64,000 bases of DNA, from assembly GCF_000220525.1 (NCBI RefSeq), contig NZ_AFPK01000062.1, positions 1-64,000 on the forward strand, read 5' to 3'. The notes under the pieces are model-generated. The model did not search any database. It had not been told where the DNA came from and worked only from the letters and a program-made list of their open reading frames with translations. This DNA comes from Ochrovirga pacifica (GTDB taxonomy: Bacteria; Bacteroidota; Bacteroidia; Flavobacteriales; Flavobacteriaceae). Below, in pieces: positions 18,917 to 49,884 of this stretch. The position numbers and the translations under genes were made by a program. Each line of letters opens with the position of its first letter. Position 1 is the first letter of the stretch.

Positions 18917-21900
18917 CTATTTCTTATAAAACTTAAGTGTATATACCTTCTCTTTATTTTCAATATTTACAATATAAATTCCTGAAGATAGCTTAGATAC
19001 ATCCAATAATTCATCCTCAACAATTAATACAGTATTTATTTGTCTTCTTCCTAAGAAATCGTAAACGTGTACTTTTGTACTACCAAAGAGTCCGTTAATT
19101 TTTAAAGTATTTATTACTGAGTTTGGAGACACATAAACTAATTGATTATAAGAATTTTGTTCCTCGTTAGATAAAGAATTATTTATTTTTTCTATGGTAA
19201 ATATTTCATTGTCACTAATTAAATCGGCATTAAATCTCATGTTATTTTCTCCGTTTACTACAGATAAATATTTATCATTGTTCCCTTTTAATCCATATTC
19301 ATTACCTCCTAGGTTTACTAAAGAAATTAACTCCCACACTCCTTTATTGGTTCTATTCACTTTAATAGGGTTGTTTCCATTCTCAGAGCTCATGTATAAA
19401 TTATTCATCCCTTTTATATTATAACCATTCCCATTTACTTCTAAAAGAAAGGCTTCGTTATGTGTAGGCTCCTCATTCTCCGACAAACTAGCTAAAATTC
19501 CATTTTCTATACTTATATACTCATTTAAGCTCTTCGATTTTAAAGAAACCATATCTCCATCAATAAAACTAGCAGCAGAACAACTTATCAAAATATTATC
19601 CCAACTTATTGTCTCTGTAGATTGTACTACGTTATTATGCTGTACAATCAATTCGTTAATGTTAGGCCAAGCTTCTTTTGCCCAATCTTTAACCTGATAT
19701 AAAATTTCACAGTCTACTCCTAAATTCTGAGCTTCTTTCAACATCCAATACATATGATCTGCATACATAGGTTCTTTTGTATTTACAGATTTTGTTACAT
19801 CATAAATTTGTGTTTTATACCACGAGTCTAAATTTTGCGAACCATTCTGCCCTCTTAAATTGTTGGCATTACTTGGAACTTCAGGTAATAAATTGTCATA
19901 CCTCCACCAATTTTCATTGGAACTAGAAAAATCATTATCACTCAAATAAAATTTATTCTGAGGCTTGTTTACTTCTTTTAAAAACTGCTTAAACTGAGCG
20001 TTTAAAACATATTTCAACAAATTAGAATCGTAATCATTTAAAGACTTTATAAATTCCAATGGTTGAAAACCTGCTAGTTGAGAGGCTCCTGCATCTGCTT
20101 CTTTTCCTAGAAAATACCACGGCCCCATGACTCTTATTCTAAAACCATTGGCATCATTAGGATTTGTATCTCCAGACCATGTTTTTGTCTGATACATATT
20201 GTTAATAGTATGAACGTATCTTAATGGCTGCATAATACCCGATGACTTACTTGAACTTAAAATAAATTCTGGCTGATAATTAAAGTCTACAGGTCCATTG
20301 TGTGAATTTACTCCATAGCCTGGTGTTAACACCATCTGTAATTGATACCAGTTTGTTGATTCATATTGTCCCGTTTCTTTAGGTTGTCCTAAAAAATTTT
20401 GACAATTACCATCTTGACATCCTGTAATATGAGCAGGTATCTCAAATACATGTTTTCCATCCTCATCAGAAAGAAACCATTGTCTGCTTGAGGGTTTATC
20501 GATAGGATTTAAATAATTAGGAGCTTGATCTTGAAGTCCAAACTCATTCATAAATTCAAAGTTTTTTACCGCCATTAGCCTCGCCAAACTTGTTGCTGCA
20601 AAAACCTGAGGAACTCCTGTTGTAACTGCATTAAGTCCATCACCTGTATCTGTTCTCCAATGCCCCCCCATATCCTCAGTATCACTACTTAAAACTTGTG
20701 CTTGAAAAAATCGATAATGTAGTCTTTGCTCTATGTGTCCCTCCTTTAACAAATCAATATCTGAACTTGGTAAATTCTTCAAATTAACTTTACCATTGGC
20801 ATCTACATAACTCAACAATAAATCTCTATACTTCTCATACCCTTTTTGGGGGTTTAAAAAACTCTTTTTAATACTTACAAAAGGTGTTTTATCCTCATAG
20901 GTTCTTTGGTAAAAATTGTCTTTAGAATAGGCATCCATTGGGTGAATCATTGGTAGCCAATGTTTCCAATCTGGAAATTGTATTGGTAATTTTAACGTAA
21001 ATGTCTCTGGAGACTTATCAGAATCGAAATAAGTATCCATATCCTCTTGTGTAAAACCTGATGTTTTTCCAAAAAGTTGGATTGCCATATCTTTGTCGTC
21101 TTCCAAAACAGCTTCCAAGCCTGCACCGGCAGACCACTCTTCGACAGACTTTGTTTCCAAATCTGGCCCTGGTTGGTAAGGTGGGTTCCATGGTCTACCA
21201 TATCTATGAATATTCCCTTTATCTCCATCTTTGTCTGATAAAGACCTTATATATGCTGCTATCAGCTTACCTTCTTCTTCTGTTAGTCTATGAAATTTAG
21301 CTCTTTCTATAATTGAAAAGTTTGAATAACTAAAAATTTCTAAATCTCTACCGTCTTGTGTATGACAATGTGTACATTTAGCCGATATTAGTTTTGGACC
21401 TCCTAAATTGTAACCATACCAAAATCCCTCTTGTCCTTCGGGTATAACACTATTCCACATATCTTGCCCCATCGTTTTTGATTCAAAATCTCCACCCCTT
21501 CCATAATACCATAAATCCTTTCCTTTATTAATACTATCATTTAATTGAGAACTAGTTAATACAACTCCATCCTCTGTATATGGATCTTTCCATTCTTCTG
21601 GGTTATCTTCTGTATAATAACTTACATTTGGTTGCTGATCTGCTAATGCTGTTTTATTAGCTGGTAAATAATAAGAGTTTCCCTTTAAAATTCTATTTCC
21701 GGAATGATCTAAAATATCCAAATCAATTATTCTAAAACCACTAGAGATACCATCTGTTTTTTCAAAACGAAAACGTATTTTATTCTGTCCAACCTTAAAA
21801 GCATTACTTGTAAACTTTAATCTAATTGTATTATAGCCCCCATGTACCATACCTCCTCTAGCCATTTCTTGTGGATAAATCTCTGTATTGCTATGATTTA

Positions 21901-22261: not shown

Positions 22262-25200
22262 TTATTCTTTAATAATTTTAAAGACCACTGTACTATTATC
22301 GTCCTGAATCCTAAGAAGGTAAACTCCAGAATTAAAACTTGACATATCTATTTGAGAACTCGATTTTTTTATTTCTTTATCTATATGTACTTTGCCGTAC
22401 ATATCGTATATCACAAATTGATAGGTTTCATCAGTCATCCCATTTATTTTCAAAACATTACCAAAAGGATTATTCTGTATGGAAATTTCCGTTCCCTCTA
22501 CTTCAGGAGTACTTAAATCTTTGTTATATTTTATTTGCAGACTAAATACCTGAGGATTCGTTAAACAATTAGGATCCGTTAGTATATGTAGTTTCCATTC
22601 ACCTAAATAGTCACTATCCTCATCGATTATAGAAAATATTTCTGGGTCTTTATTATACGCTAATTTATCCCCCCTAGGTGTTTCCCATTGATACCTTCCT
22701 TCTAAAATATAATTTGGTTTTAATGTAATTTGGGTTTCTGTATCTAAAATAATTTCATCAGAAGTATTAAATATCCCATTGTCTATTCTGTATTTGATAA
22801 AATTTTCTTCCATATTCTGACTATTAGATATACTAACTATTTTACTTACTGTATCAGAACAGGCTAATTTGGAAAATGTAAACTTTCCAAATTTGTTGGA
22901 TTCATCTAATTTTATTGTATGATTTAAGTTATTATTATTCAATAAAACTGTAGTTCCATCAGGTTGTTCTAAAGAAATATCTAATGGTGAGTGTTTTTTA
23001 TACACATGCTCTAAAGGTAACTCTTGTGACATTCTCCACTTATGAGCCAAATACCCCTCTAGATAAGTTTGATGATTTTTTGGAATACTGTAATCAAACA
23101 CCAATACTTCTGAAATAGGTCCTTTATGATACCAATTAGCATTTGCATTTCCTCCTGATATTTGACCTAAATAAAAAGCTCTAGAGGTTCTCATATTGGT
23201 ATTATCTATTTTAAAATCCTCTTCCAATTTTCCATTAATAAAAACCTGAACTCTATCTCCTTTTTTAACTGTAGTAATAATAAAATTATTTCCATCTTTA
23301 AAATACTTCCCATAATGTTTCTCGTCATTATAAACAGTCTGACTTCTACCGTCTTTACTAAACTTAAACCCAAACCCTTTATTGTTCGTAAAATTCCCCA
23401 TTAAATCTCCCCATTTATTTGACACTCTATACCCTTTACCTGTAACTATCATCGTCCAGTCATTATTTAGAAACTCATCATTTGATGTAGAAAACAATTC
23501 TAGACCATCTGCATTACGTTCTCCAAATACAACAGCAGGCAAACCATTCAACCCTTCATTATCATACCTTGGTCTTAGATTATTATTAGTAAGCACTGGT
23601 ATAGCGTAACCATTATTTGCTTTATTGTACCAATGATTTACAAATGATCTATTAGTAGGCTCATTCGTCTCTTTCACCTTTGTTGCATCAAGCCATAACA
23701 ACGGTTGGGTAGAAGCTTCTAATTTTAGCTCAAAAACATCATCAAGACAAGCAATATTATTTTTAAAATCTAACCATTCACCAGCATTCTTCTTCATTTT
23801 AATGTTCAGTCCCTCAGATGGTAAAATAAAGTTGTTTTCTGCCCAATTATTTAGCGTACAAACGGCATCTTTTAAAGTTACCCTACACTTTACTCGGGCT
23901 CCTGTATTTATATTCTCTGTAGACAATTTATTGGTGTTATTTTCTATTTCTTGGTCATCTATCCACCATTCGTACTTTAAATTTTCTACATCTCCAGTTG
24001 TTTGAGCTATCAGCACATTCTGATTGGTGTTACACTCGCTTTGATCTTCCAAATCAATCAATAGCTTTAATTCCGTTGTATTTCTATACTTTTCAAAGTC
24101 TATATTAGGCCAAGCTTTTTTAGACCATGAAATTAAGTCCTCTATAATATTACAATCTACTCCTAGATCTATAAATTGAGGTATTAAATAATACATCTTA
24201 TCTGCCCAGTAATCTAAACCTACAAAAGTGTCCATATCCGTTTTTAAATCACTCGTTTTTTTACTAACAGCATCTAAGCCATCGCTACTACCATTTTCAG
24301 ATCTTTCAAACTTTTCTATGCTATTCACAGGACTATTTACTGCTTCTAAAAATTGTTTTAACTGTGCATTTAAGATCCAAACAGATAAACCAGGTTGAAT
24401 CTTGTCTAAAAACTTTGGCCAAGCATTCTCTGGTATTTTATTTAATTGATGGCTATCAGACCTTCCTATAATATGCCAAGGCCCTTGTACTCTAATTCTA
24501 AAGCCTTTACTGTCATTATTTGGTCCTCCTGCATCTTCCCAATCTCTTATTTGGTATTTAGCATTCATAGAGTGATAATATCTTAAGGGTTCATAAATCC
24601 CCGAAGAAGAACTCGCTTTCATTATAAAATCTGGATGGTAATTATAATCAGTTGGTCCATTACCTTGAACAAAACCTCCTTCTCCACCATTTAAAACTAG
24701 CTGTAAATGATACCAATTTGTCGACTCAAATTGGCCAACTTCTTCAGGCTGCCCATGAAAAAATTGACAGTTTCCAATTATTTTTTCACCTTCAGGGGTA
24801 TAAGTATCTTTTACACATGCTTGGAAATGAGGAGGGACTTCAAACACCTGATAATCTTTACCAAACCACTGTCTATTGTTGGGGTTAGGTTTGTAGCCAT
24901 CTACCTGATCGGGTCTCATAAATTTTTTTGCTTTGTCTTGTAGGTCAAATTCATTGTACAATTCAAAAAACTGAACCGCCATTAACCTAGCTAAACTAGT
25001 CCCTGCTAATTCTCTAGGAACCCCCTCTCCTAAACTCTTAGTTGCTTCTCCATCGGAAGTTCTCCAATGTGGAAATTCATCACTAGCTGTCCCTTGTACC
25101 AAAAAACCTCTGTAATGATGATGAAATAACTGATTCCATTTATGCAATAATTGATAATCATCTAGTGTTTTCGCTGATTTAGAAAAATTGTTTTCTAAGT

Positions 25201-26482
25201 AATCTCTATAATCTTCGTATCCTTTTTTGGGATTAAAAAAATCCTCATCTCTTGGAAATCTATCAAAAGCTTTTAACGTTCTTTTTGTAACACTTGCAAA
25301 AGGATTGTTCCAAAAATCATTCTTTGTGTATGCATCCATTGGGTGTATTATGGGCAACCAATGTTTCCAGTCTGGAAATTGAATAGCCAATGGAATTAAA
25401 GTTCGGTCATACATTTTTTTAGAATCAAACCTTTTGTACACCTCTTCTTGATTGACACCATTAGGAAACATATGTTCTAACATATCTGCATCTTTTTCCA
25501 ATACTGCATCTAAACCAGCTCCGGCAGACCATTGTTCAATAGGTTTATCCTTTAATTGTTGTCCTGGTTGATAAGGTGGATTCCATGGTCTACCATACCT
25601 ATGAATCTTACCTCCCGTAGTATTTCCATCTGAATTGGATAAAGACCTTATATAAGCTGCTATCAACTTACCTTCTTCTTTAGTTAAACTATGAAATTCA
25701 GATCGTTGAATAATAGATTCATTGGAATACGAAAAAATCTCTAAGTCTCTACCATCTTGTGTATGACAGCTAGCACATTTTGCGCTAATCGTTTTTCTCT
25801 TCCCTAAATTATGTCCATACCAGAAACCATCTCTAGTTGACGGTAAATAATTACTCCATAAGTCTTGTCCCATTTTCTTTGTTTCAAAATCTCCTCCTCT
25901 TCCATAATACCAAAGACTTTTTCCTTTACTTACACTATCTTTTAACTGATTTATTGTTAAGGCTTCTCCATCCTCCGTATAAGGATCTGTCCATAGTTCT
26001 GGATCATCTTCTTCGAACACGCTTTCTTCTAGAATATCATTTTTATTAACATCCAACAAGTTAAATCTCACTACCCTATAACCATTGGAAATTCCATCAG
26101 ACAAATCAAATCTGAATTTAATGTTGTTTACCCCTTCTAATAAACCTTCAGCAGGTATGGTAAATCGAATTGTATTATGTCCTCCATGTACCATTCCTCC
26201 TCTTTCTTTCTCTGGACTTAGAATAGCACAGTTCGTGTGGTTCAAGGAAATCCAATCTTCGTTGTTAATTTGAATAGACCCTTTATTTTGATAGCTCAAA
26301 TTATTTATCTGAAACCATACTTTGTTTACTAAACTTACTTGCTGGTTGCTTAAATAAAATTGCCTCTCTTTTACCACTCCTTCTTGTCCTAAAACTTCCA
26401 CAGGTAAGACTATATTTTGGGCATTAACACTCACATATGCAAACCAAAATATTAATAATAAAGAAAGACTAATTTTATTCAT
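22262..26482 (-). CDS. T9SS-secreted single-haem protein, paralogue 2 (LamG-like tail)
   Basis: The largest paralogue, about 1,406 residues from the ATG at 26482. The frame extends to a TTG at 26509, which I judge less likely. Signal peptide ISLSLLLIFWFAYVSVNAQ. The core matches the other two copies: RGGMVHGGHNTIR, haem site CASCH (245-249 in the longer numbering) followed by TQDGRDLEIFSYSN, then RPWNPPYQPG, FPDWKHWLPIIHPMDA, TSLARLMAVQFFELYNEF and GQPEEVGQFESTNWYHLQ. After about residue 850 it diverges: an Ig-like stretch, a concanavalin/LamG-like domain (about 990-1190; LPAVVFGERNADGLELF, VFINGKLEEDF, ISEVLVFDYSIP), another beta region and a T9SS sorting domain. It opens the redox operon, downstream of the manA terminator. 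Function unknown; the LamG-like part may bind polysaccharide. Confidence 0.85.
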   Translation of the reverse strand: MNKISLSLLLIFWFAYVSVNAQNIVLPVEVLGQEGVVKERQFYLSNQQVSLVNKVWFQINNLSYQNKGSIQINNEDWISLNHTNCAILSPEKERGGMVHGGHNTIRFTIPAEGLLEGVNNIKFRFDLSDGISNGYRVVRFNLLDVNKNDILEESVFEEDDPELWTDPYTEDGEALTINQLKDSVSKGKSLWYYGRGGDFETKKMGQDLWSNYLPSTRDGFWYGHNLGKRKTISAKCASCHTQDGRDLEIFSYSNESIIQRSEFHSLTKEEGKLIAAYIRSLSNSDGNTTGGKIHRYGRPWNPPYQPGQQLKDKPIEQWSAGAGLDAVLEKDADMLEHMFPNGVNQEEVYKRFDSKKMYDRTLIPLAIQFPDWKHWLPIIHPMDAYTKNDFWNNPFASVTKRTLKAFDRFPRDEDFFNPKKGYEDYRDYLENNFSKSAKTLDDYQLLHKWNQLFHHHYRGFLVQGTASDEFPHWRTSDGEATKSLGEGVPRELAGTSLARLMAVQFFELYNEFDLQDKAKKFMRPDQVDGYKPNPNNRQWFGKDYQVFEVPPHFQACVKDTYTPEGEKIIGNCQFFHGQPEEVGQFESTNWYHLQLVLNGGEGGFVQGNGPTDYNYHPDFIMKASSSSGIYEPLRYYHSMNAKYQIRDWEDAGGPNNDSKGFRIRVQGPWHIIGRSDSHQLNKIPENAWPKFLDKIQPGLSVWILNAQLKQFLEAVNSPVNSIEKFERSENGSSDGLDAVSKKTSDLKTDMDTFVGLDYWADKMYYLIPQFIDLGVDCNIIEDLISWSKKAWPNIDFEKYRNTTELKLLIDLEDQSECNTNQNVLIAQTTGDVENLKYEWWIDDQEIENNTNKLSTENINTGARVKCRVTLKDAVCTLNNWAENNFILPSEGLNIKMKKNAGEWLDFKNNIACLDDVFELKLEASTQPLLWLDATKVKETNEPTNRSFVNHWYNKANNGYAIPVLTNNNLRPRYDNEGLNGLPAVVFGERNADGLELFSTSNDEFLNNDWTMIVTGKGYRVSNKWGDLMGNFTNNKGFGFKFSKDGRSQTVYNDEKHYGKYFKDGNNFIITTVKKGDRVQVFINGKLEEDFKIDNTNMRTSRAFYLGQISGGNANANWYHKGPISEVLVFDYSIPKNHQTYLEGYLAHKWRMSQELPLEHVYKKHSPLDISLEQPDGTTVLLNNNNLNHTIKLDESNKFGKFTFSKLACSDTVSKIVSISNSQNMEENFIKYRIDNGIFNTSDEIILDTETQITLKPNYILEGRYQWETPRGDKLAYNKDPEIFSIIDEDSDYLGEWKLHILTDPNCLTNPQVFSLQIKYNKDLSTPEVEGTEISIQNNPFGNVLKINGMTDETYQFVIYDMYGKVHIDKEIKKSSSQIDMSSFNSGVYLLRIQDDNSTVVFKIIKE

Positions 26483-26562
26483 TTCACATTTTTTTAACTT
26501 CAAAAACAAATAAAACGCTACACACTTAATTTTTAATTAAAAAAAAATTAATCTCATAAAAA

Positions 26563-28392: not shown

Positions 28393-29253
28393 TTAAAGTT
28401 TAATAAATAACACTTGATTAGTTCCATGTTGTGGAAAACCTAAAACATTCAGTTCTTCTGAGTAGTTAGGATCCGTAGGGTGACTCAAACCACTGATAAA
28501 AACTTCAACGGTTTTCTTCTTTGCATCTACTTTTAGCACTTTTCCAGAAGCCCAATCTGTTATATAATAATGTTTTCCGGATTTGGTAATCCCCTCAATA
28601 TTTCCGATTTCTTTTACTAATGATGTAATTTTTTTGGTTTTTAAATCTATACTCAATAAATCCCCAAACTTTGTCGTCTCAAAAGTATTAAGAGTCTTTA
28701 AAACACCCCATGAACCAACAATAAGCTTGTCTTTTTCCATGTATAAACCATCTGGAGATTCCAACCTTGAGGTTTCCAACCATACTTCAATCTCTTTTGT
28801 TTTTTCAGTTATCTTGTAAATTTTATTTCCGAAAAAATCAGACACGTACAAATCTCCATTTTTGGCTCTTACAATGTCATTAACAAACTTAGCCCCTTCT
28901 AACTTGTAAAACTCATCTACCTTTGCCTCTTTAATATTAATCTTGTAAACTCCATTTCTATCACACGCAAATAGATAATTTTTTGTAATTGTCATTCCAG
29001 ATATTGCATGCATCTTTTCTTTCTTTCCTATCCACACTTTATTCAAAACCTTACCATCTTTGTCAAGTCTAGTTATCCAAGCATTTTCATCCTCTGCTAA
29101 AGAAATTCCACCACCTAAATTAGATACAAACCACGTTTGTGATTGCTTGTGCCATACCACCTGATCTGGAGCATCGTATATCACATCCGTTTGTGAATAA
29201 ACTAAATTCACTGTTAAAAAAAACAGTATTGTACTTTTTCTAATCAATTCCAT
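28393..29253 (-). CDS. Exported SMP-30/gluconolactonase-like beta-propeller
   Basis: About 286 residues with an N-terminal signal peptide ([15 protein letters not shown]). Six-bladed propeller repeats of the SMP-30/NHL kind follow ([59 protein letters not shown]). SMP-30 proteins bind a metal and open sugar lactones. The Asn/Asp-rich turns are present, but I cannot confirm the full Glu-Asn-Asp metal site. The frame has a GTG at 29256 and an ATG at 29253; I use the ATG. It lies between the TIM-barrel lipoprotein (6 bp) and the SDR (5 bp). It acts outside the cytoplasm if the signal peptide is real, so it may work on lactones made by the secreted redox enzymes. Confidence 0.75.
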
Positions 29254-29259
29254 CACTAC

Positions 29260-30159
29260 TTAATTTAAATATTTCGATTCCCATTCTCTCCAAACTTTTA
29301 AAGACTTTGGTAAATAATCTTCAGGTTTACTTTTAATATTAAAGTTGATAAAACCAACAGGACCTTTGTACTTAATTTTTTTTAAAGCTTTCAAAAAAGG
29401 AGCATAATCAAATTTCCCTACTTCAAGTGGTTGTATTGTACTGCTATCCATAGTTCCAAAAGTTCGTCTGTCCACTGTTTTATCTGCTCCTGCAATTGTT
29501 ATGGCTCCAATATATTCTTTCACATTCATTACTACTTCATCTAGCCTGAATCCATTCCCAGCTCTCATCTCATGACAAGTATGCACTGCTAATTTCAAAT
29601 TTGGACTATTTATTTTTGAAACTAACGGCAATGCTTGTTCTGCAGCATAGAAATAACAGTTACTGTGAGGGTATAAAACAACAGTCACCCCCTTTTTTGT
29701 TGCATAATTTACCACTTCACGCAACTTTGCTTCTACAACCTCTTGATTAACACCTTGAATCATTTTTCCAAACACAAACCATAAATCAATATTTTTATTT
29801 TGTATTTTATCTATCACTAACTTCCAACTTTCTTTAAAACTTACTGGTTGATTGAAATTATATCTAAAAAAAACACTGTATATCTTAAAGTCTGCTAATG
29901 AATTTGCTTTAGGTATATATCTATCTAACTCTCTAATATCAGTTAAATTGGCTATAGGAAATGTAATTCCACTATAACCAAATCTATACAACGAGGTAAT
30001 TTGTTCTTCTGGAGTTTGTTTTTCTAACAACCCAAAATTATAAGCATAAAACGGCCTTTCTTCTTTTTCACTACTTATAATCTTTTCTTTTATTAAGGTA
30101 CAACTTGAAAAATTAAGTAATAAACCTATTACGAGACTTATTTTTTTTAGAGTATTCAT
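29260..30159 (-). CDS. Sugar phosphate isomerase/epimerase-like TIM-barrel lipoprotein
   Basis: A 299-residue protein with a lipobox (LLLNFSSC, Cys20) and a xylose-isomerase-like TIM-barrel pattern: YGFGL-type strands (FGLLEKQTPEEQI, SLYRFGYSGITFPI), VTVVLYPHSNCYF, LKLAVHTCHEMRAG and PVGFINFNIKSKPEDY near the end. Members of this superfamily act as sugar isomerases, epimerases or endonuclease IV-like enzymes. An export signal is common for the PUL-encoded, envelope-localised branch. The H...E...D metal residues cannot be assigned with certainty. It sits between the sulfatases and the SMP-30-like gene. Confidence 0.8.
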   Translation of the reverse strand: MNTLKKISLVIGLLLNFSSCTLIKEKIISSEKEERPFYAYNFGLLEKQTPEEQITSLYRFGYSGITFPIANLTDIRELDRYIPKANSLADFKIYSVFFRYNFNQPVSFKESWKLVIDKIQNKNIDLWFVFGKMIQGVNQEVVEAKLREVVNYATKKGVTVVLYPHSNCYFYAAEQALPLVSKINSPNLKLAVHTCHEMRAGNGFRLDEVVMNVKEYIGAITIAGADKTVDRRTFGTMDSSTIQPLEVGKFDYAPFLKALKKIKYKGPVGFINFNIKSKPEDYLPKSLKVWREWESKYLN

Positions 30160-31749: not shown

Positions 31750-31754
31750 TTATT

Positions 31755-33389: not shown

Positions 33390-33400
33390 TGTTCTTAAAT

Positions 33401-37793: not shown

Positions 37794-37799
37794 TTTTAA

Positions 37800-39383: not shown

Positions 39384-39738
39384 ATTATTTATTTAAAAGT
39401 CTTTCTATTTAATCACGTCTTTGATATAGAGTTCTAAATATTTGTAACACGTCGAAAAAATGAATCAACTAATGTTATTGTAAACTATTTAGCACAGGAA
39501 GCTAAATAATCACAACAGGGTTAATTTTAAATTAATAATCAATTAATTACTTAAGAAGGGTAAATACTACTTACTGTATAAAGTTTTTAAAGTTCTGAAA
39601 TAGTGTGTTTTCAATAAGTAAACAGAAGTTATTACTATAAAAAAAGAGGTTATCTAAATATTTAAGACAACCTCTTTTATGAATCTAATTAGAATACAAT
39701 TCATATTCTACTAGGTTATTTTAATGGTTATACAACCA
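39384..39738. other. Intergenic region with GH95-unit terminator
   Basis: 355 bp. It holds the hairpin at 39642-39678; the rest is AT-rich with no gene. It must contain the sulfatase promoter, but I see no clear -33/-7 pair. Confidence 0.6.
39642..39678 (-). terminator. Intrinsic terminator after GH95
   Basis: Perfect 10-bp arms AAAAGAGGTT and AACCTCTTTT (39642-39651, 39669-39678), with T-rich sequence following on the minus strand. It ends the GH92-GH3-GH95 unit. Confidence 0.88.
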
Positions 39739-42120
39739 TTATTTTTTAAAATCATTAGGACTAAAAGTTAAAACATCACCTCTATTTGTATTTTTTGTGA
39801 TAACATTTTTTTTGTATCGTAGGTTCAACTTCCCCCCATTAATTGACTTTACTACTACCTTGCTTAATTCTCTTTCTTTCCATAAAATAGAAACTTCAAA
39901 ATTCCCCCTGGCTTTTAATCCAAAAATTTCCCCCTTTGAAATTCTGGATGGTAAAGCAGGAAGTATATCAATGATTGTTTCTCCCTTACTGTTTTTTAAA
40001 TGATTTTGTAAAATCATTTCTGTAATTCCAGATGTAATCCCAAAATTTCCATCTATTTGAAAAGGTGGATGTGCATCAAACAGGTTCAGATATAATCCTC
40101 CTTTTTTATTCTTATCTACCGATTTTTTTACAGGTACAACTAACTCTTTTAATAATTGAAAAGAATGATCTCCGTCTAAAAGTCTTGCCCAAAAATTTAT
40201 TTTCCATGCTTTTGACCAGCCAGTTCCACCATCACCTCTATTCTGCAAAGTAATTTTACAGGCTTCTGCCAGTTCAGGTGTGGTTAATGGATGAATTTCA
40301 CTACCTGGATGTAATCCCCACAAATGAGAAATATGTCTATGCTTATCCTTAGGGTTATCAATATCCTTAACCCATTCTTGTAATTGACCATGCTTACCTA
40401 TTTTATTAGGCATAATTCTGTTCATTTTTTTTTCTAATTTCATTCTAAACCCTCTATCAACATTCAGTATTTTAGAAGCTTCTATGGTCACCCTAAATAA
40501 ATTTCTTATAATCTGATGATCCATTGTTGGTCCCATAACCAGCCCTCCATGCTCTGGGCTATTACTTGGCCCACTAATTAACAATTCTTTATTATCTGGA
40601 AACTCTAAAAGATAATTAGAGAAAAACAAAGATGCCTTCTTTAAAATAGGATAAGCCATTTTCTTTAAAAAATCCTTGTTCTGAGTAAATTCATAATGCC
40701 ACCACAAATGTTGAGACAACCAAGCTCCACCTGTTGGCCAAATTCCATGATTCGATCTATTAATTGGTGCTGCTCCTCTCCATATATCTGTATTATGATG
40801 TGCTACCCATCCTGGCATATTATAATGCTCTTTAGCAATTTTTTCACCCGTATTAGATAAATCATCAATCAACTTGATAAGTGGCTCTGATAACTCCGAT
40901 AAATTTGTTACTTCTGTTATCCAATAATTCATTTCAAGATTGATATTAAGGGTATACTTACTCCCCCAAGGTGGACTTATTCTATCGTTCCATATACCTT
41001 GTAAGTTTGCTGGTTGTGTTCCTTTTCTAGATGAAGAAATCAACAGATACCTCCCATATTGATATAGTAAAGCAACTAGATTTGGATCCATGTCTTGAGA
41101 GAAAGACATCAACCTTTCGTTTGTAGGTCTTCTGGAAATCTTGGTTTCTCCTAAATCTATATGCAATCGATTAAAATATTTTTGAAAATCTTTTATATGG
41201 TTTTCTTTGACTAAATTGTATGGTTTGTTATTTAGTTTTTTAAAATATTCTTTACACCTTTTATGTGGATTTCCACTTATATCTTTAAAATTGACAAAGT
41301 TTGTTGCTCCAACTAAATAGCATGTTACCTCAGTAGCGTTTTTAATTGTTACCTTATTATTTTTGGAGATTAATTCCCCTCCTTTTTGCACTAATTTTAA
41401 ACGAGCCTCAAACTTAATCTTACTTAACGGGAACTTATTTTTATTTATATCTAGATCGCGTTTAAAGTTATCTGCCTTACCTTTTATAACTATCTCGTTC
41501 TCTTCAATAGAAACCTTATAATCAGAATGATTAGAATCTAAAGTAATATCAAAATTTAGAATTCCTTTAACACTTGATGTAAGATGAACAACTATAACCT
41601 GATCTGGATGAGAAGCAAAAACCTCTCTTTTAATAACAGCTTTATCTAATTTATACACTGTTGATGCAATGGCTCTTTCTAAATCTAAACTTCTCTTATA
41701 ATCTGTTACATTGCTATGATTTTTAAAATCAATCAATACATTCGCAAAGCTCTGATAGCTAGACTGATTTATAGGATTAGACATGAATTTCTTATTCGCA
41801 ATTTCTTCTGCTTCTTTACGTTTACCATCCCATAAGCTGTTTTTAATCTTAGCCAAGCTTTTAAAAGCTCTACGATTAACATAATCATGAGGTTGACCAG
41901 ACCAAAGTGTTTCCTCATTAAATTGAATAACCTCTTTTGTTTTTCCTCCGTAAACCATTGCCCCTAACCTTCCGTTACCTACAGGTAAAGCATCGTTCCA
42001 TGTATTTGAAGGTTGATTATACCATAAAGTCAATGAAGGATCAGACAAAGTCTGCCCCTTCATTGATAATGTTATAAAAATAATACATATCAAACTATTG
42101 AATCTTGATTTAATCAACAT
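39739..42120 (-). CDS. GH95 alpha-L-fucosidase / alpha-L-galactosidase
   Basis: A 793-residue inverting glycosidase, normal length for GH95, with signal peptide (ICIIFITLSMKGQ). The N-terminal GH95 signature is SLTLWYNQPSNTWNDALPVGNGRLGAMVYGG. The catalytic region has NLQGIWND...NINLEMNYW (about 380-400, the Asn pair), SGPSNSPEHG (about 520), GLHPGSE and FQIDGNFGITSGITEM. GH95 removes alpha-L-fucose, and some members alpha-L-galactose; the sequence does not decide. Its ATG overlaps the GH3 stop by 11 bp, so it is probably translationally coupled. The FucP-type transporter fits the released sugar. Confidence 0.93.
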   Translation of the reverse strand: MLIKSRFNSLICIIFITLSMKGQTLSDPSLTLWYNQPSNTWNDALPVGNGRLGAMVYGGKTKEVIQFNEETLWSGQPHDYVNRRAFKSLAKIKNSLWDGKRKEAEEIANKKFMSNPINQSSYQSFANVLIDFKNHSNVTDYKRSLDLERAIASTVYKLDKAVIKREVFASHPDQVIVVHLTSSVKGILNFDITLDSNHSDYKVSIEENEIVIKGKADNFKRDLDINKNKFPLSKIKFEARLKLVQKGGELISKNNKVTIKNATEVTCYLVGATNFVNFKDISGNPHKRCKEYFKKLNNKPYNLVKENHIKDFQKYFNRLHIDLGETKISRRPTNERLMSFSQDMDPNLVALLYQYGRYLLISSSRKGTQPANLQGIWNDRISPPWGSKYTLNINLEMNYWITEVTNLSELSEPLIKLIDDLSNTGEKIAKEHYNMPGWVAHHNTDIWRGAAPINRSNHGIWPTGGAWLSQHLWWHYEFTQNKDFLKKMAYPILKKASLFFSNYLLEFPDNKELLISGPSNSPEHGGLVMGPTMDHQIIRNLFRVTIEASKILNVDRGFRMKLEKKMNRIMPNKIGKHGQLQEWVKDIDNPKDKHRHISHLWGLHPGSEIHPLTTPELAEACKITLQNRGDGGTGWSKAWKINFWARLLDGDHSFQLLKELVVPVKKSVDKNKKGGLYLNLFDAHPPFQIDGNFGITSGITEMILQNHLKNSKGETIIDILPALPSRISKGEIFGLKARGNFEVSILWKERELSKVVVKSINGGKLNLRYKKNVITKNTNRGDVLTFSPNDFKK

Positions 42121-44695
42121 ACAATTCTGTTTTTAATTTAATATCTGATGAAGATGTTCCTACCATAATTTCAAAATCTCCGGATTCCACTTTCCAACTC
42201 TTTTGAATATCATCCCAAAAAGCAAAGGCCTCATCGGTAAGTTTAAATTTTACAGTTTTCAACTCTCCTTTCTTTAGAAAAACCTTCTTAAAATCTTTTA
42301 ATTCTTTTAAAGGTCTATCTACAGAAGATTTTACATCTCTTACATATAACTGGATTACCTCTGCTCCATCATAAGCTCCCGTATTTTTAATGGTTACGGT
42401 TACCTCTCTTTTTAAAGAATTCACTTTAATTTTTTTATACTTAAAAGTTGTATAACTCAAACCATGACCAAATGGAAATAAAGGCTCTTTCTTATATTTA
42501 TCAAAATACCTATACCCTACATAAATACCCTCTTTGTACTGACTTTCAACCCCTCTCGTATGAAAATCACTTGGGTATTGATCTAATGACTTAGGAAATG
42601 TAATTGGTAATTTTGCACTAGGATTTACCTTTCCAAATAAAACATCTGCCAAAGCATTACCTCCTTGTTCTCCAGGATACCATCCCATTAAAATAGAAGG
42701 TACACTATCCATCCAGTTACGCATATCTATAGCTCCTCCTGCTATTACAGTAACTGCTGTATTTTTATTTGCTTTGGCTACTTTATTTATTAATTGTTCT
42801 TGTGCAGGAAACAATCTTAAATGATTTCTATCCCCAGCTTCTCTTTCTCCCATATGACCAGAAAGACCAACTGTTAAAATTACCGCATCGGATTCCTTTG
42901 CTAGCTTAACCGCTTTTTTTAACCAAGCTACGTTTTCGTAATCCCAAGACAATCTAAAGTCGGCTCTCCCTCCTGTTTTAGCATATTGAGCTTTAATACT
43001 ATATGATTTTCCCGCTTCTAAAACAATGCTTCCCATAGCATTCCAATCCAGCCAATTTCCGTTTTTATTAGAAGCAATTAGCTTATCATTTATGTACAGT
43101 TTGGCTGCTCCTGAATAATTTCTAATACTAAAAGTATACTCTCTAGTCTCCGGAGCTTTTAAACTACCCGTCCATTCAACAGAAAAACGAGACAAATCGT
43201 CCTTTTCATTTCCAGCTTCTGGAATATCAATTTCTCCAATCCATTCTTCAGAAATCACTTTATCTATTTCTGTTTTCACCACTTTTTTATTCGCATTGTT
43301 ATTATTGTAGTAGGTAGCTAACAACCCTTCTTTACCGGATGGTGTTCTTAAATATTTAGAAGGAATTACCCCACAACCAGATTCGGCATAACTACCAGGT
43401 AAATAAGTTACTTTTACACCATTAGGAACATTGTTTTTTATTCCCTGAAAAGGTGTTACTATTTGATTCTTTTTAACATTTACAAAAGCACTTCCTCCTC
43501 CTTGAAATAAGTGTGGATCAAATTTTCCATTGTTGTAATGTTTACCATAATTTCCGTTGGGACCAATAACCGCAATTTTCTTAACCTTCTTTAAATCAAA
43601 AGGCAACACATTTTCTTCATTCTTTAGCAATACCATTCCATTTGCAGCAGCTTCTCTTGCTACTTTTAAATGCTTTTTGCTATGCAATAAAGATTTATCC
43701 AAAGAAGGTTTTTCATCAAATGCACCAGACCAAAACATTCCTCTTAATAAATTACCTGTCATTTTATTTATAGTTTCTTCAGAAACCTCCCCTTTACTAA
43801 CTGCCTTTAGCAACTTCTTACCATACCATCTTTCATTAGGCATTTCTAAATCTAAACCTGCGTTTGCAGAGGCAGCTGTAGAATGAGTTCCTGCCCAATC
43901 TGACAAAACAAAACCTTTAAAGCCCCAATCTTCTCTTAAAACTTTGGTTAATAAAAATGGATTTTCACAACTATACACACCATTTAACTTATTATAAGCT
44001 CCCATTACACTCCATGCACCTCCTTTTTGAATGGCTTTTTTAAATCCAGGTAAATAGATTTCTCTAAGCGTTCTCTCGTCTGCAATAATGTTAATTCTAT
44101 GCCTATTATACTCCTGATTATTACATAAGTAATGTTTTAGATTTGCCATTACTCTCTCACTCTGCAACCCTTTTGTATAAGCAGCAGCCACCTCTCCATT
44201 TAGGTAAGGATCTTCAGTAAAATATTCAAAACTCCTACCTCCCCTTGGGTCTCTAATAATATTCATTGCTGGCCCAGCATTGGCTTGTCCACCAGAAGCC
44301 TTCATCTCTTTTGCCATGGTCGCATTTACCTTCTCTATTAAAGCTTTGTCCCAAGTACTGGCTTGTGCTATAGAAACAGGAAAATAGGTTCCCATCTCCT
44401 TAGGTTCACCTCCAGCAAACCATCCTTTAAAAGCATATGGCCCATGCTCTATTTTAAATCCAGGCACCCCTAACCTTGGTATTCCCTCCGAACCAATAAC
44501 CCCTTTTTTAGGAATTTTATCTCCTGTAACCAATGCTATTTTTTCCTTAAGAGTCATTCTTTGTAACAAGTCTTCTACTCTAGACTCTATTGGAGCCTCT
44601 GGATTTTTGTAAGTTATTTTCTGTGAATTTGCTGTTTGTACCATTAAGTACAATGCAAAAACAAAAAGCTTTTTTACGCTAAAATTTAGTTTCAT
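42110..44695 (-). CDS. GH3 beta-glycosidase with inserted PA14 domain
   Basis: An 861-residue exported GH3 enzyme (signal peptide LFVFALYLMVQTANSQ). The TIM-barrel domain shows NLKHYLCNNQE (KH motif) and the nucleophile D266 in VLSDWAGTHS. A PA14 domain is inserted in the second domain (about 455-587: GLLATYYNNNN to FRLSWDYENV). It ends with a fibronectin-III-like domain (GLSYTTFKYKKI). GH3 removes beta-linked glucose, xylose or related sugars from non-reducing ends; PA14 insertions often shape the active site. It lies 24 bp after GH92 and before GH95. Substrate in this locus is inferred only as a beta-linked side chain. Confidence 0.93.
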   Translation of the reverse strand: MKLNFSVKKLFVFALYLMVQTANSQKITYKNPEAPIESRVEDLLQRMTLKEKIALVTGDKIPKKGVIGSEGIPRLGVPGFKIEHGPYAFKGWFAGGEPKEMGTYFPVSIAQASTWDKALIEKVNATMAKEMKASGGQANAGPAMNIIRDPRGGRSFEYFTEDPYLNGEVAAAYTKGLQSERVMANLKHYLCNNQEYNRHRINIIADERTLREIYLPGFKKAIQKGGAWSVMGAYNKLNGVYSCENPFLLTKVLREDWGFKGFVLSDWAGTHSTAASANAGLDLEMPNERWYGKKLLKAVSKGEVSEETINKMTGNLLRGMFWSGAFDEKPSLDKSLLHSKKHLKVAREAAANGMVLLKNEENVLPFDLKKVKKIAVIGPNGNYGKHYNNGKFDPHLFQGGGSAFVNVKKNQIVTPFQGIKNNVPNGVKVTYLPGSYAESGCGVIPSKYLRTPSGKEGLLATYYNNNNANKKVVKTEIDKVISEEWIGEIDIPEAGNEKDDLSRFSVEWTGSLKAPETREYTFSIRNYSGAAKLYINDKLIASNKNGNWLDWNAMGSIVLEAGKSYSIKAQYAKTGGRADFRLSWDYENVAWLKKAVKLAKESDAVILTVGLSGHMGEREAGDRNHLRLFPAQEQLINKVAKANKNTAVTVIAGGAIDMRNWMDSVPSILMGWYPGEQGGNALADVLFGKVNPSAKLPITFPKSLDQYPSDFHTRGVESQYKEGIYVGYRYFDKYKKEPLFPFGHGLSYTTFKYKKIKVNSLKREVTVTIKNTGAYDGAEVIQLYVRDVKSSVDRPLKELKDFKKVFLKKGELKTVKFKLTDEAFAFWDDIQKSWKVESGDFEIMVGTSSSDIKLKTELYVD

Positions 44696-44719
44696 TTTTT
44701 CTATAATTTTGATTCAGTA

Positions 44720-46957
44720 TTATTTAATTATTCCCCATTTCTTATTCGGCTTTTCATCAAGTATTAGTTCTAATATTCCTCCTTTTATGATTTCTTTGTT
44801 ATGTATAAAAGGGGTAAAAATTTCTTTTCCGTTTAAAAATGCCTTTTGAATGTATTTTCTTCTTTTACTAGCTCCTTTTGCAACTACTGTAAAGGTTTTT
44901 CCGTTTTTTAAGTTAATTGATGATTTTTCAAAAACAGGGCTTGTTATGTTGTACACCGGAATACCAGGAGTAACCGGATACAATCCTAAGGATGTAAAGA
45001 CAACAAAGGCACTCATTCCTCCTCCATCTTCATCTCCGGGAATTCCATGAATATCATCCTGAAACCATACATCTAATAAAAAACGAGTCTTTTTTTGTGT
45101 TTTCCAGGGTGCACCAAAATAATTGTAGAGATATGGAATATGAAAAGATGGCTCATTTCCCATAGAAAATTGCCCAACCATTCCTGTAGAATTAGAACCA
45201 TCTATAAAAAATTGACTTTTTCTTTTCCCCAAAGGCTCTCTAAATAATTGATCTAACCTTTTTTCAGCATTTTTTTTACCTCCCAATAATTGAATTAACC
45301 CCTCTATATCGTGCTGTACATCCCAAGCATAGGTCCAACCATTATTTTCATCATAATACTCTCTGTACCCTCTGCCTCCAGAAGATTTAGGATCAATATC
45401 CAACCACTTACCTTGACTATCCTTAGGTATGAATAACAATTTATCTGGATGCCAAAGTTTCTTATAACCCTCTGCTACTTTTTTATAAGCTTTTGATTCT
45501 TGTTCTTTACCTAATTCAGAAGCAAATTCAGACAAGGTCCAAAAATCATAGCTCATTCCTAAGGTTACAGGAACTGGTTGTCTTTTTTCAAAACTATCCA
45601 CCAAACTAACTTTCTCAGTTTCTCCAATAGCCAAAGAAGGAAAGTACCCTTCTTTATGATAAAAATTATCTAATGCCACCTTAGGTAATCCTTGTCTCCA
45701 TGGAATTAAAGTTCCTTGAGTTAAATTCTTTTTAATTCCTTCGTAGGCATTTTTAACATCATAATCTCTTAGTCCTTTTCTGTAACCGTCAATAAAAATA
45801 GCTGAAGAATGATAGGCATTCATACACATATGATTTCCATGAACCTGAGGGAATGTTGGTAACCATCCGCTTTGTTTGTACATTTCTACATAGGAATTCA
45901 ATATATCATTTTCAATCTTAGGACTTAATATAGTCCTTAAAGGATGTTGAGCTCTATAGGTATCCCATATCCAATCATCTACATAAAAGGCTCTTTTTGA
46001 TTTATGTACTTTTTGATCATAACCACTATAGTATTCACCATATTCGTTTATGTCCACCATCCGCTCGTAAGTACGATAAAGAGAAGTATAGAATGTTCTT
46101 AATTGAGTACTAGTACCTCCTTTAACCTGTATTTGGTTAATTACCTCTTTCCAAGTTTGCTTCCCATTAATGATCAAATCTTCAAAACTATTCTTAGCTA
46201 GTTCTTTCTTAAAATTATCCCTAGCTTTATCAACGTTTATGTATGAGACAGCATATTTTAGAAATACCTTTTTGTTCTTAAATGAAAACAATAAACGTCC
46301 GTCATTCAATTTTAAATGTGATAAGTCTATTTCATGATCATTTTCATCCACAAACTTTGCAAATACATATACGTACATTTCTCTAGTAATAGGTTCCGTT
46401 CCTCTTGTTGTATAACTAACTTTTTCTTTAAAAGAAAACCCTCCTTTTTTAAGTTGATTCGCTTTTAAATTGGAACTACCAGTAATTAAAATGTTTTTTA
46501 GCTGTTTATCATTGTTAAACTCGAACTTATAAATTGCAGACTTTTTATGTGGAGTAAAACTTACAGTTATGTCATCATCTATTAGGTAGGTACTATACAA
46601 CCAAGGTTTTATATCTTCTAAATCATGATCTATTGCCATTTTAGAATTCCAAGAACTAGCGGTTATATTACCTTCTTTTACTTTTATTTTAAAAAGTCCT
46701 GTTCTTCTATGGGAATGCACCTGCATGGGAAAAGAATTTACCTGATCTGATATATAATCTACCTTATCAGGAAACATCCTTAACATTTGGTTTGGCAAAT
46801 GCATAGTGGGGTAAGTGGGTACCAAGAACTTTGACACATTTCCTATAGTAGGATCTATATACTGCGTAAAGTCTTTTTGCGAATACAAGCTTCTATTTGC
46901 AATAACTACAAACAAAATTGATAACAGAAAAAATTTTCTATGGAATTTAAAGGGCAT
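44720..46957 (-). CDS. GH92-family alpha-mannosidase, divergent subgroup
   Basis: A 745-residue exported GH92-type enzyme (signal peptide FFLLSILFVVIANRSLYSQ). GH92 is calcium-dependent and inverting. Conserved positions: FTQYIDPTIGN at the start, DENNGWTYAWDVQHD (about 541; carrying the catalytic-acid Glu), SMGNEPSFH (about 605) and GDEDGGGMSAFVV (about 645), where the classic motif is GNDDCGQMSAW. It shares these deviations with the gene at 60154, so the two form a subgroup. It opens the GH92-GH3-GH95 unit. Substrate preference differs, perhaps, from the canonical 57859 enzyme. Confidence 0.9.
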   Translation of the reverse strand: MPFKFHRKFFLLSILFVVIANRSLYSQKDFTQYIDPTIGNVSKFLVPTYPTMHLPNQMLRMFPDKVDYISDQVNSFPMQVHSHRRTGLFKIKVKEGNITASSWNSKMAIDHDLEDIKPWLYSTYLIDDDITVSFTPHKKSAIYKFEFNNDKQLKNILITGSSNLKANQLKKGGFSFKEKVSYTTRGTEPITREMYVYVFAKFVDENDHEIDLSHLKLNDGRLLFSFKNKKVFLKYAVSYINVDKARDNFKKELAKNSFEDLIINGKQTWKEVINQIQVKGGTSTQLRTFYTSLYRTYERMVDINEYGEYYSGYDQKVHKSKRAFYVDDWIWDTYRAQHPLRTILSPKIENDILNSYVEMYKQSGWLPTFPQVHGNHMCMNAYHSSAIFIDGYRKGLRDYDVKNAYEGIKKNLTQGTLIPWRQGLPKVALDNFYHKEGYFPSLAIGETEKVSLVDSFEKRQPVPVTLGMSYDFWTLSEFASELGKEQESKAYKKVAEGYKKLWHPDKLLFIPKDSQGKWLDIDPKSSGGRGYREYYDENNGWTYAWDVQHDIEGLIQLLGGKKNAEKRLDQLFREPLGKRKSQFFIDGSNSTGMVGQFSMGNEPSFHIPYLYNYFGAPWKTQKKTRFLLDVWFQDDIHGIPGDEDGGGMSAFVVFTSLGLYPVTPGIPVYNITSPVFEKSSINLKNGKTFTVVAKGASKRRKYIQKAFLNGKEIFTPFIHNKEIIKGGILELILDEKPNKKWGIIK

Positions 46958-47196: not shown

Positions 47197-49884
47197 CTAT
47201 TTTTTATAGACCTTAATAACCTCTCTCTCTCCATTACCTTCTACTGTTATAATGTAAAGTCCATAAGGAAGTTCTGAAATATCTATATCCTTTACGCTAT
47301 CTCCCTCAAATTGAGTTGTTATATATTTTTTTCCTGTTATATCATATACATTCACAATATATTGATTCTTTGTCAACCCTTGAATATGTAAATTTTCACC
47401 TTCTTGATTTAAAAATGCTTTTAAACTCAATAAAGCTTCATTATTGATTACCGCACCATTTGTAGAAGTTAATGCATCCCAATTTATATTTGGCCAAGCT
47501 GCTTTGGACCAATTAATTAATCTTATAATTTTATTATTATTAATATTAAAATGTATAGCCTCTCCAATAGTCCAATACATATGATCTGCGTACAAAGGAT
47601 CTGCACTTGTTCCTCCTGTTGTAACATCTACCACACTGCTTTTGGTTTTAAAATCTAAAAATTGTGATTTGTTATTGGTTACACCATTGTCTGGTAAAGA
47701 ACTATCGTAACGTTTCCAATAATTACTTCCATCTAAATTATATAACCTGTTTTTTCCTTCGTTATACTTGTTTGTATCTGTATCTATACTCGGTGCATCT
47801 TCTACGGCATTTAAAAAACGTTCTACAAATACATTTAATACTTTGTTTCGTAACCCAGGCTCTACACTTTCTAACTTGTTAGGCCATTCTCTTGGAGCAA
47901 AACTATGGAACTGTGAACTACCAGCATCTGCTTCTTTTCCAAAAAAGTACCAAGGCCCCATTACCCTTATTCTAAAAGCTTTTTGGCTATTTGGTCCTAA
48001 ATCTGAAAACGAACCAGACTTGGTTTGATACATAGTATTTAAAACATAATAATAACGTAAAGGCTCGTCTACACCCGATGATTTACTTGCTTTTAATACA
48101 AACTCTGGACTGTAATTATAATCTACTGGCGAGTTATGATTCATTAAACCATCTCCATCATTTAAAACTGCTTGTAATTGATACCAATTTGAAGATTCAA
48201 ACTGACCAGTTTCTTTAGGCTGTCCTTCAAAATACTGCCCTTTACTATCTCCTGTTTTAGTAATAGTTCCATCCGGACTTGTTACACTTGCGTTAAAGTG
48301 TGCAGGAACTTCAAAAACTTGATATTCATCTCCAGGCCATTGCCATCTATTTCCTTCAGCTGCTGTGTTGGTAAACTTATCTGCCTTGTCTTGCAAAGCA
48401 AACTCTTGCATTACTTCAAAATACTTAACAGCCATTAACCTTGCCAAACTTGTAGCTGCAAATTCTCTCATTACATAATTTGGCTGTCCATTAACCTCCA
48501 TTAACTTACTCTCTGCCGTTCCATTTAATGATCTCCAATGATTATTGACAGGTGCTCCTTCTGCTAGAAAAAATCTAAAATGTCTATGAAACTCTCTACT
48601 TTCATCTAAAAACTGTGTAGCTAGTGTAGACGAAATTGTTCCATTTCTAAGATCTGTTTTATTTAACTCTAAAAAGTCTCTAAAATCTTCATAAGCTTGT
48701 TTAGGGTTAAATGTTTTACTCATACTATTCCAATAATCATCTTTTGTAAATGCATCCATTGGGTGAATCATCGGTAACCAGTGTTTCCAGTCTGGTAACT
48801 GAATTGCTAACGGCATGGTAGTTTGGTCTACTTTTTTAGTTGGATTAATTATTTGAGCAGCTTTTGTTTGAGTAATCGTTTCACTATTATTTGTTAATTC
48901 AAACAAATGTTCTTTCATAGCACTATCGCTCCCCAAAACAGCTCCTAAACCAGCTCCTGCTGCCCACTTATCTACAGTTCTTGTTTCTAAATTTTTACCT
49001 GGTTGATATGGTGGGTTCCAAGGTCTACCAAACCTTCCAATATTTGTACCCGGATCCATTTCATCTTTAAGAGAACGAATATAGGTTGCTATTAAATTCC
49101 CTTCATGTTGGGTTAAACCATGAAATTTAGCTCGCTGTGCAATGGAAAAATTAGAGTATGCAAATATTTCTAAATCTCTACCATCTTTGGTATGGCAAGA
49201 GGCACATTTTGCATTTATTGGTTGACTCCCTTTTATTTTTAAATCCTGTCCATACCAATGAACATTTCTAGTTGGTGGTAAATAATTATTTAACAAAACT
49301 TTATTGGCTGATCCATCCTCTGTTTTACCCTCCCAAAGATTTTTCCCTTTAGTAATTGCATTTGGATCACTAAAAACCCCAGTCCATAAGGCAGGATCAT
49401 CGTTAACAAAAGTACTGCTTGGTAATAAATTAGTTCCAGAAGAAGATGGTCTAAGATTCATTGCAATCACCCTGTAACCATTTGAAATTCCGTCAGACTC
49501 ATTAAACTTAAATTTAATGGTATTTAGCCCCACAACTAATCCGTTTGTTGGAACATCTACCAAAAGTCTAATTGTATTGTGCCCACCATGAGTCATTCCT
49601 CCCCTTTGTTTACCAGGGTATAATATATTAGTATTGCTATGTTCTAAAGAAATCCAGTCTGTAGTATTAAACTTTACAGAAGCTTTATTTTCATAGCTTA
49701 AATTGTTAACTTGAATCCATAGCCTCCCAGCTTGACTTTGCTGACTAGCATCCAAATTAAACTGAACTTCTTTTACATAACCTTCGGGTCCTAAAACCTC
49801 TATAGGCAATGTAATTGTTTGTGAAAAAGCACTATTTACCTTCAGTAAGAAAACAAACAGTAATAGAAAATGTAATTTTTTCAT
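47197..49884 (-). CDS. T9SS-secreted single-haem protein, paralogue 3
   Basis: An 895-residue member of the same family as the proteins at 18917 and 22262, and the shortest. Signal peptide LLLFVFLLKVNSAFSQ. The core is conserved: QRGGMTHGGHNTIR, haem site CASCH (227-231) followed by TKDGRDLEIFAYSNFSIAQRAKFH, RPWNPPYQPG, LPDWKHWLPMIHPMDA, TSLARLMAVKYFEV, GQPKETGQFESSNWYQLQ and RIRVMGPWYFFGKEADAG. The core is followed directly by a T9SS sorting domain (last 75), without the tails of the others, so this copy shows the minimal unit. It is transcribed alone. Only one CxxCH is seen. Function unknown. Confidence 0.88.
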   Translation of the reverse strand: MKKLHFLLLFVFLLKVNSAFSQTITLPIEVLGPEGYVKEVQFNLDASQQSQAGRLWIQVNNLSYENKASVKFNTTDWISLEHSNTNILYPGKQRGGMTHGGHNTIRLLVDVPTNGLVVGLNTIKFKFNESDGISNGYRVIAMNLRPSSSGTNLLPSSTFVNDDPALWTGVFSDPNAITKGKNLWEGKTEDGSANKVLLNNYLPPTRNVHWYGQDLKIKGSQPINAKCASCHTKDGRDLEIFAYSNFSIAQRAKFHGLTQHEGNLIATYIRSLKDEMDPGTNIGRFGRPWNPPYQPGKNLETRTVDKWAAGAGLGAVLGSDSAMKEHLFELTNNSETITQTKAAQIINPTKKVDQTTMPLAIQLPDWKHWLPMIHPMDAFTKDDYWNSMSKTFNPKQAYEDFRDFLELNKTDLRNGTISSTLATQFLDESREFHRHFRFFLAEGAPVNNHWRSLNGTAESKLMEVNGQPNYVMREFAATSLARLMAVKYFEVMQEFALQDKADKFTNTAAEGNRWQWPGDEYQVFEVPAHFNASVTSPDGTITKTGDSKGQYFEGQPKETGQFESSNWYQLQAVLNDGDGLMNHNSPVDYNYSPEFVLKASKSSGVDEPLRYYYVLNTMYQTKSGSFSDLGPNSQKAFRIRVMGPWYFFGKEADAGSSQFHSFAPREWPNKLESVEPGLRNKVLNVFVERFLNAVEDAPSIDTDTNKYNEGKNRLYNLDGSNYWKRYDSSLPDNGVTNNKSQFLDFKTKSSVVDVTTGGTSADPLYADHMYWTIGEAIHFNINNNKIIRLINWSKAAWPNINWDALTSTNGAVINNEALLSLKAFLNQEGENLHIQGLTKNQYIVNVYDITGKKYITTQFEGDSVKDIDISELPYGLYIITVEGNGEREVIKVYKK

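Follow-up and report, generated by a model that had tools for sequence, protein, structure and literature searches.

Oxidative attack on polysaccharides is known mainly from copper (LPMO), flavin or PQQ enzymes, and oxidation-elimination deglycosylation systems use flavin or NAD oxidoreductases; to our knowledge, none of the latter has a single-haem c protein. For Cbp2D/X183 of Cellvibrio, a CBM-bearing cytochrome passing electrons to an oxidative enzyme has been proposed (PMC8981238), and flavinylated NapH-like proteins connect extracytosolic oxidases to the respiratory chain (PMC8238504). PULs for diatom C6-sulfated alpha-mannan have been described in Polaribacter and Ochrovirga, in a text which names no haem or cytochrome (PMC13063451). 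In the literature on cytochrome c together with PUL, fucoidan or mannan, nothing was found on the single-haem protein family described here. The window used in the present analysis is a stretch of 64,000 nucleotides of Ochrovirga pacifica (contig NZ_AFPK01000062.1), in which three genes of this family have been found together with PUL-type genes.

Three paralogues and their relationship

Three open reading frames, at 18917..22201 (paralogue 1, 1094 aa), 22262..26509 (paralogue 2, 1415 aa as listed) and 47197..49884 (paralogue 3, 895 aa), have in common a core of approximately 790 residues, for which the alignment gives 44-47% identity against the copy at 47197; these genes and all of the features within them are on the reverse strand. 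All motifs quoted in the first-pass annotation, a reading of the window made before this analysis, fall within the alignment, and its claim of three paralogues with a shared core holds. In a genome-wide search the copies matched with E-values of 7e-194 and 4e-173, which rules out chance similarity, and no members other than these three were found in the Ochrovirga pacifica genome. The description of the proteins as giant, with a 700-residue core, has been modified, because the real sizes are 895-1415 aa and the core starts with a CBM-like sandwich of approximately 130 residues, which is a domain of its own.

Paralogue 3 is composed of a signal peptide, this sandwich, the single-haem core and a T9SS tail. 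Paralogue 1 has the core, a DUF7910/fascin-like beta-trefoil (19175..19405), which is possibly a lectin, and a T9SS tail, and paralogue 2 has the core, a long C-terminal extension and a T9SS tail. The T9SS type A sorting domain (TIGR04183) was above the cut-off in all three, with profile matches at 18920..19129, 22265..22471 and 47200..47400 in paralogues 1, 2 and 3, respectively. For paralogue 2, the listed TTG start is probably wrong, and the in-frame ATG at 26482, which opens a normal signal peptide, is probably the true start.

In a maximum-likelihood tree, paralogue 1 clusters with Flammeovirga (support 100/96) and paralogue 2 with Polaribacter and Tamlana (support 100/99), and paralogue 3 has a long branch with no firm placement. 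Since the copies fall in separate places in the tree, a recent tandem duplication has been rejected, and the three are read as old paralogues. The earlier suggestion of distinct substrates for the three copies gains indirect support from their being old and separately related.

Anatomy of the core and its haem site

The core begins with the CBM-like beta-sandwich, which is followed by a haem segment and then by a helical region of approximately 430 residues. The N-terminal approximately 130 residues matched PF14683 (PL4 CBM-like domain III) in 29 of the 30 members, and in paralogue 3 this sandwich (core residues 1-130, at 49432..49821) is assigned as PL4 domain III/CBM35-like by PF14683 and by fold. 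The haem/helical part falls in no sequence family of Pfam, NCBIfam or PDB, and the haem segment weakly resembles Cytochrom_C in 16 of the 30 members (E 0.03 at best). A PDB sequence profile search with the core gave chance cadherin matches only, DUF1587 and DUF1592/1595/1588/1585 gave no match in a scan of 30 members with E values of up to 1 allowed, and neither a GMC nor a PQQ propeller domain was found in the core with Pfam and NCBIfam. The first-pass annotation had recognised no enzyme family, and none has emerged over the core from Pfam, NCBIfam or PDB sequences.

The structure prediction and fold search proposed there have given a confident model with no convincing match in PDB. AlphaFold produced pLDDT 83.7 and pTM 0.88 for the whole core, and 81.9 and 0.88 for the haem/helical part alone. 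With the whole core, Foldseek matched the N-terminal sandwich only, with nothing at E<=0.001, and all VIA-align matches (Z up to 8.1) fell in residues 1-130, mostly to sugar-binding/jelly-roll domains (Z 6-8). For the haem/helical model, the best Foldseek E against PDB was 0.7 and the Z values of 6.5 or less were to unrelated helical-repeat proteins; no haem or sugar enzyme was prominent among the matches, and the class I cytochrome c fold and the CCP-like fold were absent among the top PDB fold matches listed. Judging from the model, the haem/helical part appears to have no convincing solved relative, and a missing match is no proof of a new fold or against either of the two known ones.

One haem site per protein had been claimed, and each of the three copies indeed has exactly one CxxCH and no CxxxCH or CxxxxCH in the motif scan: CTHCH at 21362..21376 in paralogue 1, CASCH at 25763..25777 in paralogue 2 and CASCH at 49192..49206 in paralogue 3 (core C206-H210). 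The motif is invariant in 44 of 44 members and in four distant Myxococcota homologues, and haem attachment is predicted from it and from a cytochrome c assembly gene in the genome. The best-conserved part of the protein consists of residues outside the sandwich. Invariant or nearly invariant in the 44 sequences are CxxCH, D216, F220, S223, Y247, R249 and RPW.PP.QPG, and further W286-AGAG, P343-D344, W348, P354 and D356; other strongly conserved features of the core are GRPWNPPYQPG (48997..49029 in paralogue 3), PDW..WLP..HP.D, W546, D567 and Y570.

The side of the haem opposite to His210 has been considered from conservation. His234 (49120..49122 in paralogue 3), a candidate distal haem ligand or catalytic residue, is kept in 42 of the 44 members, with Arg in the other two, and in all four distant Myxococcota homologues. 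Position 353, which lies in the motif PDWKHWLPMIHPMD (48754..48795 in paralogue 3), is occupied by His in 36 of the 44 and by Tyr in the remaining eight, which are members of one genus, and a universal His ligand at this position has been rejected for this reason. His234 and His/Tyr353 thus appear to be the best candidates for a distal ligand, neither being universal as a catalytic or ligand residue, and the distal side is possibly His/His, His/Tyr or open. The ordinary His/Met pattern of electron carriers is not supported for the family, because no Met is universally conserved among the 44 members and the best position keeps it in 34.

Relatives and gene neighbourhood

Approximately 45 relatives have been found in Bacteroidota, Myxococcota, Verrucomicrobiota, Bdellovibrionota and Gamma- and Betaproteobacteria, and the family is carried by only approximately 1.5-3% of the sampled genomes: 7 of 296 in Bacteroidota, 6 of 397 in Flavobacteriaceae and 8 of 237 in the Myxococcota sample, four of the last eight through the haem segment alone. 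A scan of genome contigs gave 34 loci, which belong to Polaribacter, Tamlana, Aquimarina, Tenacibaculum, Flammeovirga, Marinoscillum and Hymenobacter in Bacteroidota, and otherwise to Myxococcota, Bdellovibrionota, Verrucomicrobiota (Rubritalea) and Gammaproteobacteria (Marinibactrum); Betaproteobacteria are represented by Caballeronia plasmids. Broken members have also been noted, one in Aquimarina split over two frames (L033:9887-12882) and one short remnant in a flavobacterial MAG (L035:5872-6927). A cytochrome b561-like gene, recognised by eye from the sequence, lies near the Caballeronia member on the opposite strand (L074:12958-13521).

Extra modules vary among members and include CBM6/35, RicinB, B_lectin, H_lectin, Laminin_G, PA14 and F5/8. 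In distant Myxococcota proteins a related haem segment is fused to CBM2/CBM56, and two of these proteins have GH16 as well; homology is clear over the haem segment of approximately 72 columns only (95% probability). The two GH16 fusions (L066 and L067), of approximately 1400-1500 aa, combine CBM2, CBM56, a GH16 glucanase and a distant single-haem module, and in another distant member (L070) the haem module is preceded by a canonical cytochrome c domain. A tandem pair of family genes is situated within a conserved glycosyltransferase cluster of exopolysaccharide type in four GC-rich genomes of one genus, which we take to be Rhodothermus-like (L039-L042); in two of the first tandem copies, Arg is found at the equivalent of His234.

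The window contains three GH92, two GH99-like, GH95, GH3 and GH120-type genes, five sulfatases, a permease and a mannose-6-phosphate isomerase. One block of these PUL-type genes (30169..46957, reverse strand) has sulfatases at 30169, 31755, 33401 and 37800, an MFS permease at 34865, and GH99-like, GH95, GH3 and GH92 genes at 36501, 39739, 42110 and 44720, respectively. Another (52223..63708, reverse strand) has a GH120-type insertion domain at 52223, a sulfatase at 54864, GH92 at 57859 and 60154, and GH99 at 62365; a 374-residue protein located amid its GH92/GH99 genes (56431-57555) had no Pfam or PADLOC match. Because of this glycoside hydrolase and sulfatase content, the substrate of the locus is probably sulfated alpha-mannan or a fucose-containing algal glycan. 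A sulfatase, GH92, GH99 or the same permease was found within 10 kb in 9 of the 34 loci, and the clades of Aquimarina, Tenacibaculum, Hymenobacter and Myxococcota lie outside PULs. The frame of a marine Bacteroidota PUL, in which the first-pass annotation had placed the family, is thus too narrow, since relatives occur in Myxococcota, Verrucomicrobiota and Caballeronia and in a polysaccharide-biosynthesis cluster.

Only 5 bp downstream of paralogue 1 is the gene for a membrane protein (16962..18911, reverse strand) with an FMN_bind domain carrying the flavinylation motif DAITAATET, a NapH/NosR-like Fer4_5 domain and a flavin-reductase domain. A further 13 bp downstream, a gene at 14678..16948 (reverse strand) encodes a DUF7133 (PVC-type haem-binding, propeller), HEAT and cytochrome c domain protein. 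These two genes abut two of the three paralogues, ApbE and cytochrome c assembly genes have been found in the genome, and a redox gene adjoining the haem gene is absent in most relatives. A defence island (4184-14415) directly adjoins the haem operon; it contains a type I restriction-modification system, in which a Schlafen/AlbA_2 protein is encoded between the R and S genes, and then an AbiTii/Hypoth_ymh protein. Beside it, a UG5-nitrilase (DRT) defence-type reverse transcriptase gene is present in three pieces (2-4118), namely the N-terminal piece at 3642-4118, the RT piece at 1561-2556 and the nitrilase piece at 2-1213, the first two being split by an IS30-like transposase (2600-3604).

A secreted SMP-30-like beta-propeller (28393..29256) and a secreted AP_endonuc_2 TIM barrel, which is sugar isomerase/epimerase-like (29260..30159), both on the reverse strand, are kept next to the relatives of paralogue 2. 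In the window and in three loci of relatives (L005, L008 and L016), the haem gene has both of them beside it or nearby, with 50-73% identity, and in the sample of 397 Flavobacteriaceae genomes the close unfused pair was found only in genomes with the haem gene. A fused TIM-barrel/propeller ORF of approximately 560 residues was observed in G539, G669, G654, G620, G441 and G296, mostly without the haem gene. Since the two are a single fused ORF in these other Flavobacteriaceae, they probably act together.

Possible function and comparison with known systems

We tentatively favour, at somewhat less than an even chance, the reading that the proteins form a new enzyme family, with a single haem c, which is targeted to carbohydrates at the cell surface and oxidatively modifies polysaccharide. 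This reading is favoured by the approximately 430 further residues, whose conservation goes far beyond the needs of an electron carrier, by the absence of the conserved Met that class I electron carriers have, and by the recurrence of carbohydrate modules, namely the CBM-like domain, the varied lectin/CBM additions and the fusions with GH16, CBM2 and CBM56. It is also consistent with the lack of any other recognised cofactor domain in the core, the invariance of CxxCH, the PUL-type loci and the tandem pair in the glycosyltransferase cluster, and with the flavinylated membrane protein and DUF7133-cytochrome c protein downstream and the cytochrome c domain of L070. It is weakened by the scarcity of adjacent redox genes in relatives and by the replacements of His234 and His353, and an oxidase with a single haem and neither a flavin, PQQ nor Cu module would be unusual. 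For the Aquimarina, Tenacibaculum, Hymenobacter and Myxococcota clades, polysaccharide oxidation is suggested by the binding modules only, because of the position of their loci. The catalytic role beyond electron transfer, which the first-pass annotation had suggested, has become likelier in view of these conserved residues around one haem, with no universal Met and no obvious solved fold, and catalysis itself is what we infer from them. A more far-reaching form, in which the core represents a carbohydrate-active oxidoreductase of a new class, with a single covalent c-type haem and an unseen fold, sparse over phyla and sometimes GH-fused, that cleaves or oxidises surface polysaccharides, is regarded as doubtful.

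If the family consists of such enzymes, each copy would be exported by Sec, would gain one covalent haem in the periplasm and, as predicted from its domains, would reach the surface through the type IX system, where the CBM-like domain and the added lectin-like modules would hold it on polysaccharide. The haem would sit in the helical domain peculiar to the family, where His210 would be its proximal ligand and His234, His/Tyr353 or an open site would make up the distal side; it would catalyse oxidation or oxygenative cleavage of polysaccharide, here probably the algal glycan suggested by the PUL. Two of the three copies may exchange electrons with the downstream flavinylated membrane protein and cytochrome c-propeller protein, in either direction, the flavinylated partner feeding electrons out or taking them in; members without such neighbours would use O2, H2O2 or a diffusible donor. 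The three old paralogues would probably attack different linkages or decorations.

The chief alternative, which we consider rather unlikely, is a pure electron-transfer protein, whose haem would only connect the cell with another, oxidative enzyme (a dehydrogenase or LPMO-like) and whose helical domain would be a docking scaffold. CBM-linked c-type cytochrome domains feeding LPMOs are known (CjX183, PMC8981238), and both the adjacent electron-transfer genes in the window and the weak Cytochrom_C likeness of the haem segment agree with such a role; its haem is His/Met in CjX183, whereas the family has no conserved Met, and a conserved haem/helical core of approximately 650 residues far exceeds the needs of a carrier. 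Moreover, no match to AA10 LPMO (PF03067), the one LPMO family searched, was obtained in the Ochrovirga pacifica genome. The TIM barrel and propeller next to the haem gene, and their restriction as a close unfused pair to haem-gene genomes, would fit an arm of a 3-keto/lactone pathway, in which sugars are oxidised by the haem protein, with or without the help of the DUF7133-cytochrome c protein, and the TIM-barrel/SMP-30-like proteins process the product by beta-elimination, epimerisation or lactone opening. C3-oxidised glycosides are indeed cleaved by sugar-isomerase-like enzymes (PMC10628242), but these neighbours occur in one clade only, DUF1080 and GFO/IDH genes are both missing from the window, a dehydrogenase cofactor site is not recognised in the haem core and the role of the TIM barrel is putative; we regard this pathway as distinctly improbable. 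The many binding modules and the putative nature of the active site would also agree with a non-catalytic surface glycan-binding protein, having the haem as a structural element or as a haem/iron store; covalent haem c is costly, its CxxCH is invariant across phyla and the strongest conservation lies away from the sandwich, and we hold this to be very unlikely.

If haem c enzymes targeted to glycans do exist as we favour, they would represent new chemistry in carbohydrate breakdown and would help to explain the consumption of hard-to-degrade sulfated algal glycans. If the proteins carry electrons only, they would still be a new kind of glycan-anchored electron conduit.

Among known systems, the flavinylated NapH/NosR-like type (PMC8238504) is alike in that the product of 16962..18911 has its FMN_bind flavinylation motif and Fer4_5 domain; it covers the type of partner, and haem proteins such as these are not among its described members. 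Oxidation-elimination deglycosylation (AtOGE; PMC10628242) is comparable in that an oxidised sugar could be the substrate of the neighbouring isomerase/epimerase-like TIM barrel. As a GH92/sulfatase-rich marine flavobacterial locus, the window resembles the PULs described for diatom C6-sulfated alpha-mannan in Polaribacter and Ochrovirga (PMC13063451).

Cbp2D and Cbp2E of Cellvibrio japonicus (X158, X183 and X132; PMC8981238, PMC12542752) are likewise secreted multidomain proteins with CBM and single-CxxCH haem domains and with a link to polysaccharide breakdown, and X183-type features present in the family are the one CxxCH, the CBM-like domain in 29 of 30 members, and the export signals, namely signal peptide and T9SS tail. 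With its His/Met haem (Met66 in CjX183), X183 belongs to the small class I carriers, whereas the family has the far larger haem/helical part, and Cbp2D carries Pfam DUF1587, whereas the family core matches neither the X183 nor the DUF1587 type in Pfam (X132 was compared via Pfam only). RoxA/RoxB and the CCP/MauG group (PMC6797691) are also large secreted c-type haem proteins acting on a polymer outside the cell, and their open or His/Tyr-type distal sites resemble the candidates in the family; they carry two CxxCH haems against one in the family, and no sequence similarity was detected. Since it has no conserved Met and one haem instead of two, the family appears, on its sequence features, to stand outside both the CBM-linked cytochromes and RoxA, while it is partly like each of them.
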